Assembly (NCBI GenBank): GCA_002917775.1 | Contig: KZ627154.1 | Coordinates: forward strand, 148,465 to 212,464 | DNA length: 64,000 nucleotides | DNA from: Glaciozyma antarctica PI12 | Taxonomy: Eukaryota > Basidiomycota > Microbotryomycetes > Kriegeriales > Camptobasidiaceae | Reading direction: 5' to 3' | Shown here: positions 53,157-59,809 of the stretch, in pieces | How positions within the stretch are numbered: the stretch's first letter is position 1 | How the letters are laid out: every line of letters begins with the position of its first letter | Notes under the pieces: model-generated | Databases searched by the model: none | Seen by the model: the letters and a program-made list of their open reading frames with translations, nothing else | What the model was told of the DNA's origin: nothing | Position numbers and translations under genes: made by a program

Positions 53157-53560
53157 ATGACCCACCACACGACCCACAACACGACCGGCGCGACTGGGGT
53201 ACGTTGCTCCCTGCATCCCTGCTCTCGACATCAGCTAACGAGCGCTCACAGGGAGGACTCCTGGGCCACCACCAGACAGGCCACCACAACTCGCACGTCA
53301 AGACGACCGAGAAGCACACGACTACGCACCATCCCAACGGAGCCGTCACTCACTCGACTACGACGGGAATCCCCAAGGTCCCGATGGGGCAGAAGGTCTC
53401 GGGCAAGATGGATGTGCTGATTGGAGAGGTGTGTTTCTTAGGACTAGGAAGGAAGAGGAAAGCTGATGGTGGAGAGCAGATGACGCATAACCCTGCGAAG
53501 GTGGCGATTGGACATGCGAAGACATGCGAAGGAGGATTGATGAGGCCGCAGGCGCACTGA
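53157..53560 (+). CDS. Small His/Thr-rich protein
   Basis: Three exons give about 98 residues. The first is MTHHTTHNTTGATG. Exon 2 follows a GTACGT intron with a CTAAC branch and reads GGLLGHHQTGHHNSHVKTTE, then KHTTTHHPNGAVTHSTTTG. Exon 3 is reached through a GTGTGT intron and ends MRPQAH, TGA at 53558-53560. The end of exon 2 (VPMGQKVSGKMDVLIGE) plus exon 3 (MTHNPAKVAIGHAK) resembles the G-x-(V/M)-x-x-x-x-G-x(6)-NP pattern of small fungal stress-linked (CsbD-like) proteins; this is a loose resemblance only. It has no signal peptide. The many His could bind metal, but this is not shown. Confidence 0.6.
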
Positions 53561-53993
53561 GCGAGCGTGCTCTTGCTGTAGTGTGTTATTCCTTTCGCTG
53601 TGCATTGTAACACCCCCGTTCGACGCCTACTTCGACGTACTCCATCGCGACTCGGCGCTCAGACGCGTCCTCGAGTCGGAAAGGCCGCACTTGCGGCCCC
53701 GTTCCTTCCTCGCAGTCGTGAGAGAAAGCTCGGCCATCGTTGAGTTTCTTGAGCCCTGCGCATGCCAAAGTCCGATCCGAGAGGAAGGATGCGTCGTCGG
53801 GAGAGAAATCAAGTCGCGAGTTCTCAGCGTATCGCCAGCAGCTGGCGCAAGCGGGACGTCGAAGCGGGCAGGAAGCGAAAATTGAAGCCAGCAGGAAGAG
53901 TGAGGCAGGAAGCTTTGGAAGCAGCAGCCGCGAAAGCGAAGGCTTGTATCAACAAAAGTCCATTACTGTTTAAAAGGGTGGAACACGAGACGA
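53561..53993. other. Convergent 3' region
   Basis: 433 nt between the stops of the His-rich gene (+) and the second ferritin-like gene (-). It should hold both 3' ends. No coding exon was confirmed. Confidence 0.4.
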
Positions 53994-55307
53994 TTACGCC
54001 ACAGTGACCATGATATCGGAAGGACCCAACTCGATGATGGCGGGTCCAGCGAGGACGGAAGCGTCGGCAACCGAGGGACCGCTGGTGAGGACGACGTCTG
54101 CACAGCGAGCGAGGTCAGCAGCCGTGCGAGGATCGAAAGAAGAAAGCGACGAACAAGTCTGTCCGAGGGTGATGTCGGAGGGGATGGCGCAACTTCCGTC
54201 GGTGTAGGGAGTGAAGGAAGCTCCGAGTCCACTGCATCGATACCAGGGTCAGCGAGGTGCCGACTCGAAAAGGTGGAAAGGGACGAACGCTGCGAAACCG
54301 CAGAAGACCTCGGCAGGGAAGGACTCGACGACCATGGGGTCGGCGGGAGCGAGAGTGAGGGATCCTCCAAGGGCGGGGACGGCGGAGGCGTCGCCACTGA
54401 TGACGAGCGCGGGGAGGCCCATGATCGCGGGGGCGGATCCCTCGGGGCAGCTGACGAAGAAGGCTGCGAGAGGATTGAGAGGTTAGGAATGTCGAGACGA
54501 GGGGCACTAAGGAACGCACGAGTGGCCATGGAAACGACGGCGGCGGCGGACTGGGGAGTGTCGTAGGGTGCGGGGGCAGGGAGGCGGGAGTTGAGGAGGC
54601 GGATGAAGGCAGAGTGGCGAGCCTCGACGGTCAAGATGGAGCCGCTAGAAGCAACAAAGTCAGCTTGGGGTCTTCTCGAAGGGCGAGTACGACGTACGCA
54701 GCGAGGAGGAAGTCCTTGTTCTCGATCGAGCCAGCAGCGCCGAGGTAGGCGGAAGTTCCGACTCCGACGAGGACCTGGGAGAGGGCGAGGAATCCTGAGA
54801 CGTTCTCGTAGGGGAAGTTGTACTCGCAGGCCTCCACTGCAAACGGGGGTAGGAGTTAGCTGTGAGCGATGGGGGGGAAGGTGCGAGAGACTAACCAGGA
54901 GTTGCGCCAGCGGCGGTGAGGGCGGTCGAGAGGAAGGCAACGTGGCTCTGCTCATCCTCGGCGACCTTCTGGAGGTGGGCGTAGACACCAGGGAATCCGG
55001 CCTCCTCAAAGTCGGCCTCGCTGAACTTGGCAACACCCTCGGCGTAGAAAGCGTTCTCCAGGTGCTCCAGCGTGAGCGCAAACTGTCCAGGCCGTTGTCA
55101 GCGTTGCCCATGGATGGTCGTGGTAAGCCAGAGAGGACGCACGTTCAGAACCGTCGCGTCATCGGCGCCGGTGGTCGTAGACTGGCGCTTGATGATGTTG
55201 CGCTTCATTCCGGCGTTGGACTGAGGAACCATGAGAGCCGAAGCTGCGACGGCAGAGACACAGATGCCGGCGAGGATGGAGCGAAGGGAGATGGTGTTGG
55301 AACGCAT
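53994..55307 (-). CDS. Ferritin-like (Rds1-type) secreted protein without GPI tail
   Basis: Paralogue of 47473-48853, with the same order of motifs. Start at 55307 gives a longer signal region (MRSNTISLRSILAGICVSAV) and the matching MKRNIIKRQSTTTGADD segment. The ferritin-like part has NFALTLEHLENAFYAEGVA, EDEQSH, FLALSQVLVGVGTSAYLG and VEARHSAFIRLLNSRLP. It ends SVADASVLAGPAIIELGPSD, IMVTVA, TAA at 53994, so the Ser/Gly linker and hydrophobic anchor of its sister are absent. It is therefore probably released rather than anchored. Intron positions look shared with the paralogue, which supports duplication. Confidence 0.85.
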
Positions 55308-56186
55308 GTTGAGTCTGGTGGAGGTGTTGGGAGGAGGTGGTACTTGGGAGTTGGATGAGCTGGTGATGAGAGAGAAGGAGAGAGAAAAAGGGAGTCCCCT
55401 TTCAATAGAGCTCCTCGAAAGCAGTGGGCCGAGAGGGCAGGAGAGCGTAATTGAATGACGAGCAGACGAAAGCCAGCGGCCCAGCGAGGTCGAACGATGA
55501 GATTAGTCGGCTCGAATCACTTCAGCAGTAAGCTCGATCCAGCCAGACCGGCCAGGCCCCCCACAGTTTTTCCGCGAAGTCGTCTCTGGATAAATGGAGT
55601 GACAAGCAGACAACACCCACGAGAGGAACTAGCGAGGAGGAAGAGGAGGAGGAAGAAGAACTCGCCGATCGTGTTCGCTCTTCTGCTCCAACCGCCCGCC
55701 CCGCCGACCCCCACGCCATTCTCCGACAGCAGTAGCTTCCAGCAAGGTGCCAGTCCGCCTTCTCGTGGCATCGAATCGCCCTACCCGTCCAACTCCACCG
55801 CCGCAGCTCCACCGCCTCAAACCTCCTCCTCGTCCGATCCAGCATGCAGCCAGCTCGCCAACCACCAGGAAATGCATTCCAGGAAGGCGTCATGGACTTG
55901 AGAAGGGTTGCGGAACCGCAGGGCGCGCAGGGGTGGAGCCGGAGTGAAGGAAGATGGGGCTGCCGGGGAGCGGAGGGCGGGATGCGGGTTGAGGCGGAGG
56001 GATCTGCTGCTGAACTGGGAGGGCGTGGAGCTGACTGCAACGCTGCTGTTGACCCAAGAGACGTGCACTAGTTGTTTAAAGGCTCCCAGAATTGCGTAGA
56101 CGCGAAGCTCGCGAGAAGAGGTTCTGCTCACTGTGGACCGCGCCATCAGCTGCCGCGCTGCAGACCCCCGCACCACAGTAACTCAC
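55308..56186. other. Unassigned region upstream of the second ferritin-like gene
   Basis: 879 nt. It includes the ferritin-like promoter. An unassigned minus-strand open frame begins near 56149 (MARSTVSRTSSRELRVYAIL) and ends near 55820. It has no recognised family, and its start overlaps an intron-like GTGAGT...CACAG signal just after the stop of the neighbouring gene, so it may instead be 3' UTR. Codon use is not decisive. Confidence 0.35.
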
Positions 56187-56465
56187 CTAAGCCCGATCCG
56201 TCTTCTCCTCCCCATTCGTCTCCGCTTCCCCTGCGTGTCCTACTTCCTGCGCCGAAGTCGAAGTGTCCCCAGAGGCATTCGCGCTCTCACTCTCGCTGGG
56301 AGCCTGCTGTGTGCAGACGGACTTGTAGACGAGCTGCTCGGGTAGGGCTCTTCTTCCCCCGGTCAATCTGCGGGCCGTTGCCTGGGGAAGCCGGAGAGGG
56401 GAACGTTAGAGAGGTTCCTACGGAGAGCGCGATACGGCGAAAGGACGGACGTAGGTGCGTGCCAT
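56187..56465 (-). CDS. 69-residue protein with histone H3-like N-terminal tail
   Basis: Exon 1 (56465-56451) encodes MARTY. A 69-nt intron (56450-56382; GTCCGT donor, CTAAC branch, CAG acceptor) joins in phase to exon 2 beginning ATARRLTGGRRALPEQLVYK, so the protein starts MARTYATARRLTGG. Histone H3 starts [20 protein letters not shown] followed by LATK. Allowing a one-residue insertion, A1, R2, T3, T6, A7, R8, T11, G12, G13, A15, Q19, L20 and K23 match, while K4, K9, K14 and K18 are replaced (Y, R, R, E). The rest is acidic and Ser/Glu-rich (QQAPSESESANASGDTSTSA), ending NGEEKTDRA, TAG at 56187, with no histone fold. Function is unknown. It could be an H3-tail mimic, or a decayed H3 5' end that kept an open frame. 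Confidence 0.5.
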
Positions 56466-56847
56466 CAGGAGGGCTGCTGGATGATGGGAATGAGGGCGAG
56501 GACAGGGTACAGAAAGGACGAGTCTTGTTCAAGGGGGTGTGTGGGAGCAGGAGCCAAGTCCGCAAGTCCGCGGAAGCTCTCCTCGCCTACCGGTCGAGCA
56601 GTGCGCTCCCTCTGATCACTCACCAGGGCTGTGAGCTCCTAGCTCGCATGCGTGCTTGCGCTCAGAAACGACCCCGCGAAGCGGTGAGAGTGGGAGCAGA
56701 GCGCCGGCCGGAGCAGTCCCTCCTCCCCTGTGAGCGAGACCACAGCCCAACCTCTTCTCTCTCTGCGCCGTAGCTCCCAAACTGCACACAACAGCTCACT
56801 CCGAGAACCCTCAATACATTCAATACCGCTCCTCCCTACTCCCAGGC
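56466..56847. other. Region between the H3-like gene and the glutaredoxin gene
   Basis: 382 nt holding the upstream region of the H3-like gene and the 3' flank of the glutaredoxin gene, both on the minus strand. No coding exon was recognised. Confidence 0.4.
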
Positions 56848-57891
56848 TCACGCCGCCAGCATCTCCGTTAGCTCCCCCGACTCGACCATCTCCTGCACCA
56901 CATCCAATCCGCCCACAAATTCGCCCTTGATGATAAGCTGAGGGAACGTTGGCCATGTGTTGAGTTCCTTGAGCTCTGCGCGTGCTCGGGGTCAGCTACG
57001 AGAGGACGAGAGGGAGGGGGAGGGACGCACTCTGCCGCACGCCTTCGTCGCTGAGGATATCAAAGGTCGTGTACTCGAGCCCCTGCTTCTCGAGGATGCC
57101 AATGATCTTCTGCGAGAAGCCACACCTGCGCAGAGGCGAAAGCGAGGTCAGCTCCATCGTCCTCGACCCCACCTGACGCTCTCGACACACCATCCCCACC
57201 CTTCTCCCTCCTTCGAACCCTCCTTGCCATTTCCCTCACCGCATACGATAGCACAAGCACTCACCTCGGCGTCTCCCGGTTCCCCTTCATAAACAGCACG
57301 ATATCGCTCTGCGCCATGAGGGCATTACACCTCTCGACCAACTCCTCCTCTCCCTCCTCATCCATCTTGTCATCCTCCTCCTCCTTCTCAGCAACGTACG
57401 TCCCTGCCGCAGCCTGCGGTCGCTGAGAAGTCGAAGAGAGTGCTGCGGGCTTGGTGGCGTGCGAGGTGAGAGCGGCGGAGAGGACGGAGGGCTGGGCGCC
57501 TGAGAGGCGAGTGAGGAGAGTGTGGCCCTATGGACCGTGAGAGGTGTTAGGGAGGTCCTGCGAGAGGGGCAAAGGGAGCGCACGCGGAGGAGGATAAAGT
57601 AGGGGACTGCGTCGACTTCGAACGATTCGGAGATGTCGGGGAGGGATTCGGCTTCGATCTGGTTGATCGCGCAAGGGATTATTATGCGAGTCAGGTGGGG
57701 GTAGGGGGGAGCGGGAGGCGTACGGAGAGGAAGAGGACGCCTGGCCAGCGTTTGGCGAGTTCGACGATGACTGAGTCCATTTGAGTGCAAGGCTCTGCCC
57801 AGTCTGCCCTGAAGTAAAGGCAGGAGACTCGGGAGAGGTCCTTGGAGAGCAACTTCTGCAGGTGCTCAGGTGAATCCACGATAGTCGCCAT
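56848..57891 (-). CDS. GRX4: Monothiol glutaredoxin Grx3/Grx4
   Basis: Cytosolic/nuclear Fe-S-binding glutaredoxin used in iron sensing and delivery. Start at 57891: [20 protein letters not shown], then a thioredoxin-like domain with [20 protein letters not shown] (single Cys as in Grx3/4), and [14 protein letters not shown] with the cis-Pro. An acidic linker ([16 protein letters not shown]) leads to the glutaredoxin domain: [34 protein letters not shown] with the CGFS active site, and [20 protein letters not shown]. It ends [11 protein letters not shown] at 56848. One thioredoxin plus one Grx domain matches yeast Grx3/4. Only 85 nt separate its start from that of the divergent THI20-type gene. 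Confidence 0.93.
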
Positions 57892-57976
57892 GCTTGAGAG
57901 GAAGTGGTTGCGAGTCAAGAGACGTTCGCTGGGCGGACACTCGTTGTCCCTTCTCTTCCACGCTGCCGACTTGAAG
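57892..57976. promoter_or_regulatory. Compact bidirectional promoter of GRX4 and the THI20-type gene
   Basis: 85 nt between two outward-facing starts, so core promoter elements must be shared or overlap into transcribed sequence. No thiamine-riboswitch-like structure was seen here. Confidence 0.5.
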
Positions 57977-59809
57977 ATGGCACCAGAACGCCATGCTGAT
58001 ACACCACCACGGCTACTGACTATCGCAGGATCAGGTCAGTCCTTTGCCTCAACTCGCGGTACAGCCTCCTGAGCTGCTCCTCCCATCTCAGACTCCGGCG
58101 GAGGTGCTGGCATTCAAGCGGACCTCAAGACGTTCGCCGCCTTCTCCACCTACGGAATGAGCGTTATCACAGCCATTACAGCTCAGAATACGCTCGGCGT
58201 CCAAGCCGTAGGCCACCTCGACTCGGCTCTCGTCTCCGCGCAGCTCAACAGCGTCGTCTCTGACATTGGCGTCGACGCGATCAAGACGGGAATGCTCTCG
58301 AGCGCCGAGACGATCCTCTCCATCACCAGCACCCTCGCATCCCTATACACCCTCGACGCACACCCTCCTCTCGTCGTCGACCCCGTCCTCGTTAGCACCT
58401 CCGGCCACTCCCTCCTCCCCTCCTCAGCCGTCGACGTCCTCCGCTCCCACCTCTTCCCCTGGGCAACCGTTATCACTCCTAATATCCCAGAAGCGGAAGT
58501 CCTTGCCGACGCGCCGGGGAGCATCAAGACGCTCGAGGACATGCGGAGTTGCGCGCGGAAGCTGGGAGGAATGGGTGCGCGCTGGGTGTATTTGAAGGGA
58601 GGGCATATGCCGCTCGAGATGGGTGGTAAGAAGGTCGTGCTGGACCTGCTGTGGGATTCGAAGGACGAGGTCGAGGTGTTGGCGGAGCGACCGTATCTCG
58701 AGTCACGCAACACTCATGGAACGGGGTGTACGCTCAGTGCTGCTATCGCTGCTGAGCTGGCCAACGGCAAGACGGGTGCGTTTCAGGAGCCTCTAGTGAC
58801 GCAGGGTGGAGCTGACGACCTTGCTGCAGTCCCTGAAGCAGTCCTCTCGGCGGGAGACTACGTCTCGGCGGCTATCGCATCCTCCTACCCTCTTGGCGGT
58901 GGTTCAGGTCCCGTCAACCACTTCCACGCCCTCATCCCTCGCTCCCTACCTCTCCCCAATCCCTTCTCTCCCCAGCCTTTTACCGACTACCTCATCAACT
59001 ACAAGCCTGATGTCTGGCGTCGCTACGTTCACCATCCGTTCCCGACCGCTCTCGGGGCTGGAACTGCGTCTCTATCTGCGTTCCTCCACTTTATCGAGCA
59101 GGACTACCATTTTCTCAAGGCGAGTCGCTCACGAATCATCCGCAGCGTTCGTGCTGACCTCTTTACAGCAATATGGAAGGACGAACGCGCTCGCAGCGTA
59201 CAAGACCGAATCCATGGACGACATGGCATCCTCTATGGTTATGTGCGTACTTCCTTACACTCTTTCTTTCCCAACTGACTGTTCTCCGTCGCAGCGTCGC
59301 CGCCATCGTCCACGAAACCGAGAACCACATCAAGACGTGCGCGACGTACGGCATCTCTCGCGAGCAGCTTCTCGCCGTCCCCGAATCCGTCACCAACATC
59401 GCCTACAACCGCTACGTCCTCGACACGTCCGCTAAGGGAGACCTGCTCGACACTCGCGTCGTCACTGCGCCGTGCTTGATCGGGTATGGCGTCGTGGGAA
59501 AGCGATTGGTCGAGGCGACGGAGGGAGTGGACAAGAGTGAGGCGAACCCGTATTGGGAGTGGGTCAAGGAGTATGGTGGGGAGTGGTACCAGGGTGCTGT
59601 GAGCACTGGGATCGGTGAGTTTATACGCTGTTGTGGGCGGGGGGCGAAAGCTGATAGGGTCGCAGAGCTGTTGGAGAAGACGATTGCGGAATCGCCTGTT
59701 GCGCCAAGAAGGCTGGTGGAGCTGGCCAAGATTTTTTGTGCAGGCGACCGAGTTGGAGATCGCGTTCTGGGATGCGGCGATGGAGGCTGCGACGACGGTT
59801 AGAAATTGA
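57977..59809 (+). CDS. THI20: Hydroxymethylpyrimidine/phosphomethylpyrimidine kinase fused to TenA (Thi20 type)
   Basis: Bifunctional thiamine-pathway enzyme: phosphorylates HMP to HMP-PP, and the TenA part hydrolyses pyrimidine breakdown products. Start at 57977: MAPERHADTPPRLLTIAGSD, spliced to SGGGAGIQADLKTFAAFSTY, GMSVITAITAQNTLGVQAV. Kinase motifs: DAIKTGMLSSAETI, VDPVLVSTSGHSLL, ITPNIPEAEVL and the anion hole NTHGTGCTLSAAIAAEL. The TenA domain starts near FTDYLINYKPDVWRRYVHHP and includes FLHFIEQDYHFLKQYGRTNA, ETENHIKTCATYGISREQLL and ELAKIFVQATELEIAFWDAA. It ends ATTVRN, TGA at 59807-59809. The domain order matches yeast Thi20. Introns use CTGAC branches. Confidence 0.93.

Follow-up and report, generated by a model that had tools for sequence, protein, structure and literature searches.

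A partial duplicate of a histone H3 gene, with its first intron and an open reading frame, in Glaciozyma antarctica PI12

We report that a short two-exon gene of Glaciozyma antarctica PI12 is, as read from its DNA, a real, partial, intron-bearing duplicate of a histone H3 gene with an intact reading frame. It lies on the minus strand of the window, i.e., the whole stretch of 64,000 nucleotides analyzed here (positions 148,465 to 212,464 of contig KZ627154.1, assembly GCA_002917775.1). An earlier reading of the same letters (hereafter, the sequence-only reading) had noticed a tiny protein that begins like histone H3. Taken jointly, the start of the protein, the intron and the DNA similarity make its descent from an H3 gene highly probable, and the comparisons below strongly support the step from "begins like H3" to "derived from H3". 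For the locus as a whole, the explanation that we rank best, at slightly less than an even chance, is a partial H3 duplicate that is still translated and would serve as an unmodifiable competitor or adaptor.

Structure of the candidate gene

The locus comprises the following features, given in window positions and in the order of transcription.

56466..56847, minus strand: intergenic space upstream, reaching to where a gene with a glutaredoxin domain ends, the presumed place of promoter and leader (from the sequence)
56451..56465, minus strand: exon 1, codons 1-5 (MARTY), counterpart of H3 exon 1 (MARTK; from the sequence and the comparison with the H3 genes H3a and H3b)
56382..56450, minus strand: predicted intron (69 nt) that follows codon 5 in phase 0, at the position of intron 1 of H3a and H3b
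56298..56381, minus strand: portion of exon 2 that derives from H3 (codons 6-33) and whose DNA can be aligned to H3 up to about A29-P30
56190..56297, minus strand: acidic tail rich in Ser, Glu and Ala, codons 34-69, with no relative recognized in our searches (from searches and composition)
56187..56189, minus strand: stop codon TAG, with a donor-like GTGAGT directly after it

The frame of 69 residues is read from exons at 56465-56451 (15 bases, with the ATG at 56465-56463) and 56381-56187 (195 bases), and its product is MARTYATARRLTGGRRALPEQLVYKSVCTQQAPSESESANASGDTSTSAQEVGHAGEAETNGEEKTDRA. When re-read, the coordinates, the intron of 69 nt at 56382-56450 and the 69-residue product were all as the sequence-only reading had them. 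We found no disabling lesion (stop, frameshift, lost start or lost splice site): the 69 codons are open, the ATG is present and the GT-AG intron has the donor GTCCGTCC, a branch-like CTAAC at 56409-56405 and the acceptor CCCCAG. These signals suggest that the intron is spliced out of the transcript; were it retained, a stop would be reached at the 11th codon past exon 1. The start context is weak, with C at base -3 (read by eye). Among the 390 upstream bases that we examined, the sole ATG in the same frame, at -354, is followed by a stop after one further codon, and the ATG nearest to the start in any frame, at -184, opens a frame of 9 codons. The GC content of the window is 59.8%. On the same strand, stretches of a glutaredoxin domain lie upstream and stretches of a ferritin-like domain lie downstream.

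Past the stop codon, the GTGAGT donor after TAG (window 56181-56189) is followed by a branch-like CTGAT and by CACAG, which might represent a 3' UTR intron or the leftover of a longer gene. Further exons joined through this donor were considered and rejected: in the frame of the candidate, only a 3' UTR intron results. Just downstream, also on the minus strand, there is an open frame of 121 residues (55817-56182) with no Pfam match at E 0.01.

An H3-like start on a protein that is no histone

The candidate begins MARTYATARRLTGG, which is identical to the start of H3 in 10 of 14 residues when the initiator is counted, as the H3-like start of the sequence-only reading implied. The residues kept are A1, R2, T3, T6, A7, R8, T11, G12 and G13; after one insertion, A15 (as in H3b), Q19, L20 and K23 are also kept. 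This agrees with what had been listed for R2, T3, T6, R8 and T11 and for the positions after the insertion, A15 matching with H3b. The replacement of K4, K9, K14 and K18 by Y, R, R and E, and of S10 by L, is also as first described. Hence, despite the 10 matches in 14, the candidate does not have the N-terminal tail with modifiable lysines by which an H3 is recognized. Further on, codons 16-30 encode another residue than H3b in 11 of 15 cases and another than H3a in 12 of 15. The local score of the spliced protein against H3 was attained by 6 of 20,000 shuffles, which is good but not overwhelming.

Judged by its sequence, the candidate is no histone, since the histone fold (about residues 40-136) is absent. 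The sequence-only reading had described an acidic remainder without this fold, and three results bear it out. The 69 residues have no match in Pfam, a search of the six frames of 53501-58500 for a remnant of the H3 fold detected none (best score 35, p = 0.915), and the calculated charge turns from +4.5 in residues 1-31 to -7.1 in residues 32-69. In sum, the candidate is like H3a and H3b in its tail residues, its first intron and its DNA to about codon 31, whereas it differs from them by the missing fold, the changes at K4, K9, K14, K18 and S10, two net insertions of one codon and the acidic C-terminal tail.

Kinship with the H3 genes of the genome

We scanned the whole genome (19,983,266 bases in 18 contigs) with an H3 probe, which matched 11 stretches at four places. 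Two of these have canonical tails, H3a on C5 (L009) and H3b on C6 (L010). In both, the first intron, as read from the sequence, lies directly behind codon 5 and in phase 0. The candidate has its own intron at the identical place, MARTY|ATARR, again in phase 0. Hence, the alignment with the organism's own H3 genes that the sequence-only reading had proposed as a check gives one intron position and phase for the candidate, H3a and H3b. Moreover, the donor octamer GTCCGTCC of the candidate is the one that opens intron 3 of H3b (as read by eye). The intron sequences themselves show no clear alignment between the candidate and the two H3 genes (shuffle p 0.056 and 0.174; 0.034 for H3a versus H3b).

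Some features of the H3 genes are worth recording in their own right. H3b (G000:C6:927400-929600) reads as an intact H3 of 136 residues when its exon boundaries are picked by eye; this gives seven exons, one of which has 12 bases and is followed by an intron that starts with GC. H3a (G000:C5:858600-861000, minus strand) has KGNG in place of KAPR in its tail, and its frame is disturbed near residues 98-106 in the present assembly. Two of the splice pairs tried there stay in frame: one gives EAYLVFRVRGRDTNL where H3b has EAYLVSLFEDTNL, the other skips the segment, and none of the pairs tried yields the normal EAYLVSLFEDTNL. As its sequence stands, H3a may be a divergent copy, a decaying copy or an assembly error. 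The remaining two places, L011 (G000:C5:737200-739100) and L012 (G000:C17:249400-251200), are two more H3-like genes, in both of which additional residues separate the first two helices of the fold, as in CENP-A (read by eye). Two CENP-A-like genes within one genome would be unusual.

To assess how often such a start arises by chance, we simulated DNA by an order-4 Markov model of the window and looked in it for an ATG with four further codons and a GT, then for a YAG at a distance of 40-150 bases with nine codons after it. Over 160 Mb (single strand), no instance with the intron after codon 5 had ten H3 identities in 14; the maximum, 8, was seen a single time. On both strands of the window itself, 10 of 14 occurred once, at the candidate locus, and the runner-up had 6. 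The kinship is also seen in the DNA. In codons 1-14, 32 of 42 bases are those of H3a and 30 of 42 those of H3b; none of 20,000 random segments of the window reached these values (best 24). Past these 14 codons, too, the similarity exceeds chance: when codons 15-34 were compared with H3 codons 15-32, the score was attained by 1 of 19,995 random segments for H3a and 0 of 19,988 for H3b. The local DNA alignment to H3 reaches about Ala29-Pro30 and beyond, with two net three-base insertions in the candidate before that point, and 0 of 500 shuffles were as good against either H3. Finally, a 23-base pattern from the start of exon 2 was found in the whole genome, at up to 3 mismatches, only in H3a, H3b and the candidate (reversed control, 0), although it was written from those same three exon-2 starts.

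Searches with protein alone say less. When H3 residues 6-40 were compared with the six frames of the window, the best match lay elsewhere, on the plus strand (score 45, p = 0.38, 100 shuffles). Within 53501-58500, a basic stretch of the plus strand outscored exon 2 of the candidate (47 with H3 residues 1-40, p = 0.055; 45 with residues 6-40, p = 0.015). A phmmer search of the 69 residues against PDB chains gave no match. The resemblance to H3 becomes conspicuous only when the start, the intron and the DNA are combined.

The shared intron position and the DNA similarity past codon 14 thus point to part of an H3 gene that was duplicated and joined to a new acidic tail. The sequence-only reading had offered a histone-tail mimic or decoy, or a decayed H3 5' end with a new tail; descent from the 5' end of an H3 gene is strongly supported by these comparisons, the DNA being similar up to about codon 31. 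What remains of the duplicated gene would be exon 1, the first intron and exon 2 as far as about Pro30; the part for the histone fold would have been lost, and the H3-derived part would now be followed by the acidic segment, which by its composition is probably disordered.

We also looked for relatives of the candidate itself. A search of the whole genome with the 69 residues returned only the candidate and a weak match on C13 (E 0.449), which we did not count as a relative; the one frame in which it was translated contains stops. A DNA search with the 541 bases around the gene returned only the gene itself, i.e., no close duplicate with flanks in this genome. A probe made of the 33-residue H3 tail found H3a and H3b and missed the candidate, and is thus blind to copies that have diverged to a similar degree. 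In two collections without fungi by design, none of the 33 pattern stretches in viral contigs and none of the 583 in prokaryote genomes was confirmed as a relative.

Possible action as a tail mimic

The initiator methionine is cleaved before alanine, so its removal from the candidate would expose Ala1-Arg2-Thr3, the portion of H3 that is anchored by BIR domains and by many PHD fingers. With ARTYATARR, the candidate would have what a mimic of the H3 tail needs, a small first residue that is exposed and H3-like residues after it. Tyrosine at position 4 and the lack of lysine at 4, 9, 14 and 18 would make the usual tail marks impossible there; the change from Lys4 to Tyr also argues against readers and writers of Lys4. 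If the candidate is translated, its likeliest action would then be that of an unmodifiable competitor or adaptor whose Ala1-Arg2-Thr3 docks into the pocket of a BIR or PHD domain. Its most plausible place of action would be a BIR domain of the Bir1 type, perhaps after phosphorylation of Thr3, and this particular role we consider unlikely. Somewhat less unlikely, in our view, is the broader proposal that the start of an H3 gene has turned into a stand-alone microprotein that competes for tail binders such as Bir1 or PHD readers. If this were true, the H3 N-terminus of the microprotein could not be methylated or acetylated at positions 4, 9, 14 and 18.

The genome encodes possible partners. Two neighboring BIR stretches score above the Pfam cut-off, which we take to be the arrangement of fungal Bir1. 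There are also three haspin stretches at one place, as well as 12 PHD and 4 chromo stretches as candidate readers of the H3 tail. According to PMC9253516, Survivin requires Ala1, which sits in a pocket of its BIR domain, to bind H3; Sgo1 uses the same pocket through an H3-like start of its own (Ala1-Lys2-Glu3-Arg4), which is bound almost as H3 is. Shugoshin 1, with its AKER tail that binds Survivin, and the candidate both have alanine after the initiator methionine and an H3-like start. They differ in that the H3-like part of Shugoshin 1 is described as four residues of a longer protein, whereas the resemblance of the candidate, whose binding is putative, extends by descent over some 30 residues. 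For H3 binding, K62, E65 and H80 of Survivin are named (PMC9253516). Compared with Survivin by eye, both BIR repeats of the genome keep E65, while position 62 is Leu or Arg and position 80 is Arg or Lys. The absence of K62 and H80 from both repeats makes binding of the candidate by BIR doubtful.

Alternative explanations

A chance likeness, or an independent convergence on an H3-like start with no kinship to an H3 gene, would fit a match that spans only about 30 residues, a six-frame protein comparison over the window that is not significant and the lack of a PDB chain found by phmmer. Against it stand the identical position and phase of the intron, the two similar stretches of DNA and the 0 occurrences in 160 Mb simulated, and we regard it as very improbable. 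We give marginally less weight still to a different mode of action, in which the tail, like a SNAG peptide, would occupy an LSD1-type demethylase as a pseudosubstrate, Tyr 4 standing in for the methyl-lysine. Position 4 is aromatic in SNAG peptides as it is in the candidate, and SNAG transcription factors share with it an N-terminus like the H3 tail. Unlike in these factors, we saw no zinc fingers in the candidate, and we recognized no LSD1-type SWIRM protein in the genome, where a divergent or intron-split LSD1 could escape the search. The single SWIRM match adjoins a SANT-like frame, as in Swi3/Rsc8 (naming by eye), and not an amine oxidase, which makes the pseudosubstrate less likely. PMC12612597 describes the SNAG domain as a mimic of H3 tails that recruits LSD1.

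The main rival to the tail-mimic reading is a young relic, i.e., a partial H3 duplicate adrift without selection that is by luck still free of stops, frameshifts and broken splice sites, to which we assign a probability somewhat short of one half. Neither codon usage nor the pattern of substitutions demonstrates selection on the candidate. Exon 2 has a coding score of 6.6, computed after training on long ORFs that were not curated, and 0.7% of 433 open base shuffles score as high. Yet it ranks at the 27th percentile among segments of long ORFs and at the 46th among random open segments taken from the window, from which codon usage does not set it apart, and one frame of the opposite strand scores 7.0. 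Given the DNA differences in codons 1-14, the probability of keeping 10 amino acids is 0.02-0.18 against H3b and 0.08-0.62 against H3a, a range that hinges on the number of silent changes assigned to the H3 side; under most assumptions, silent change is not clearly in excess. The 11 or 12 residues replaced in codons 16-30 fit a relic as well, and so does H3a, which with KGNG for KAPR and its disturbed frame at about 98-106 suggests that H3 copies may decay in this genome. What speaks against a relic is how seldom neutral copies stay intact. When neutral decay was simulated at 0.2-0.4 substitutions per site, the start, the splice signals and a frame open as far as H3 codon 31 outlasted it in 0.17-3.3% of copies; in 0-1.5%, 10 of the 14 tail residues were left as well. 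This rarity favors retention by selection, though only intact copies would come to notice. Both insertions are, moreover, net multiples of three, and the 23-base pattern of exon 2 matches no further place at up to 3 mismatches. Processed or partial histone pseudogenes are, like the candidate, partial copies of a histone gene, but the candidate differs from them by its retained intron, open frame and intact splice signals. That the two-exon gene still yields its protein of 69 residues is what we consider the most likely outcome, at about even chances.

Implications

Known mimics of the H3 tail resemble H3, to our knowledge, over few residues. In a light search of one open-access library, the titles and first parts of abstracts that we looked at mentioned no gene of the kind described here. 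The mimic-like start of the candidate stems, by the evidence above, from an H3 gene by descent, intron included. If the candidate is a relic, it would record a histone gene that lost its fold but kept an intact start. Conservation and translation would make it a natural H3 tail devoid of the main lysines, a tool with which readers satisfied by Ala1-Arg2-Thr3 alone could be told from readers that depend on lysine marks. If the tail-mimic reading is true, a histone gene of the genome itself would have been the direct source from which histone mimicry evolved there.
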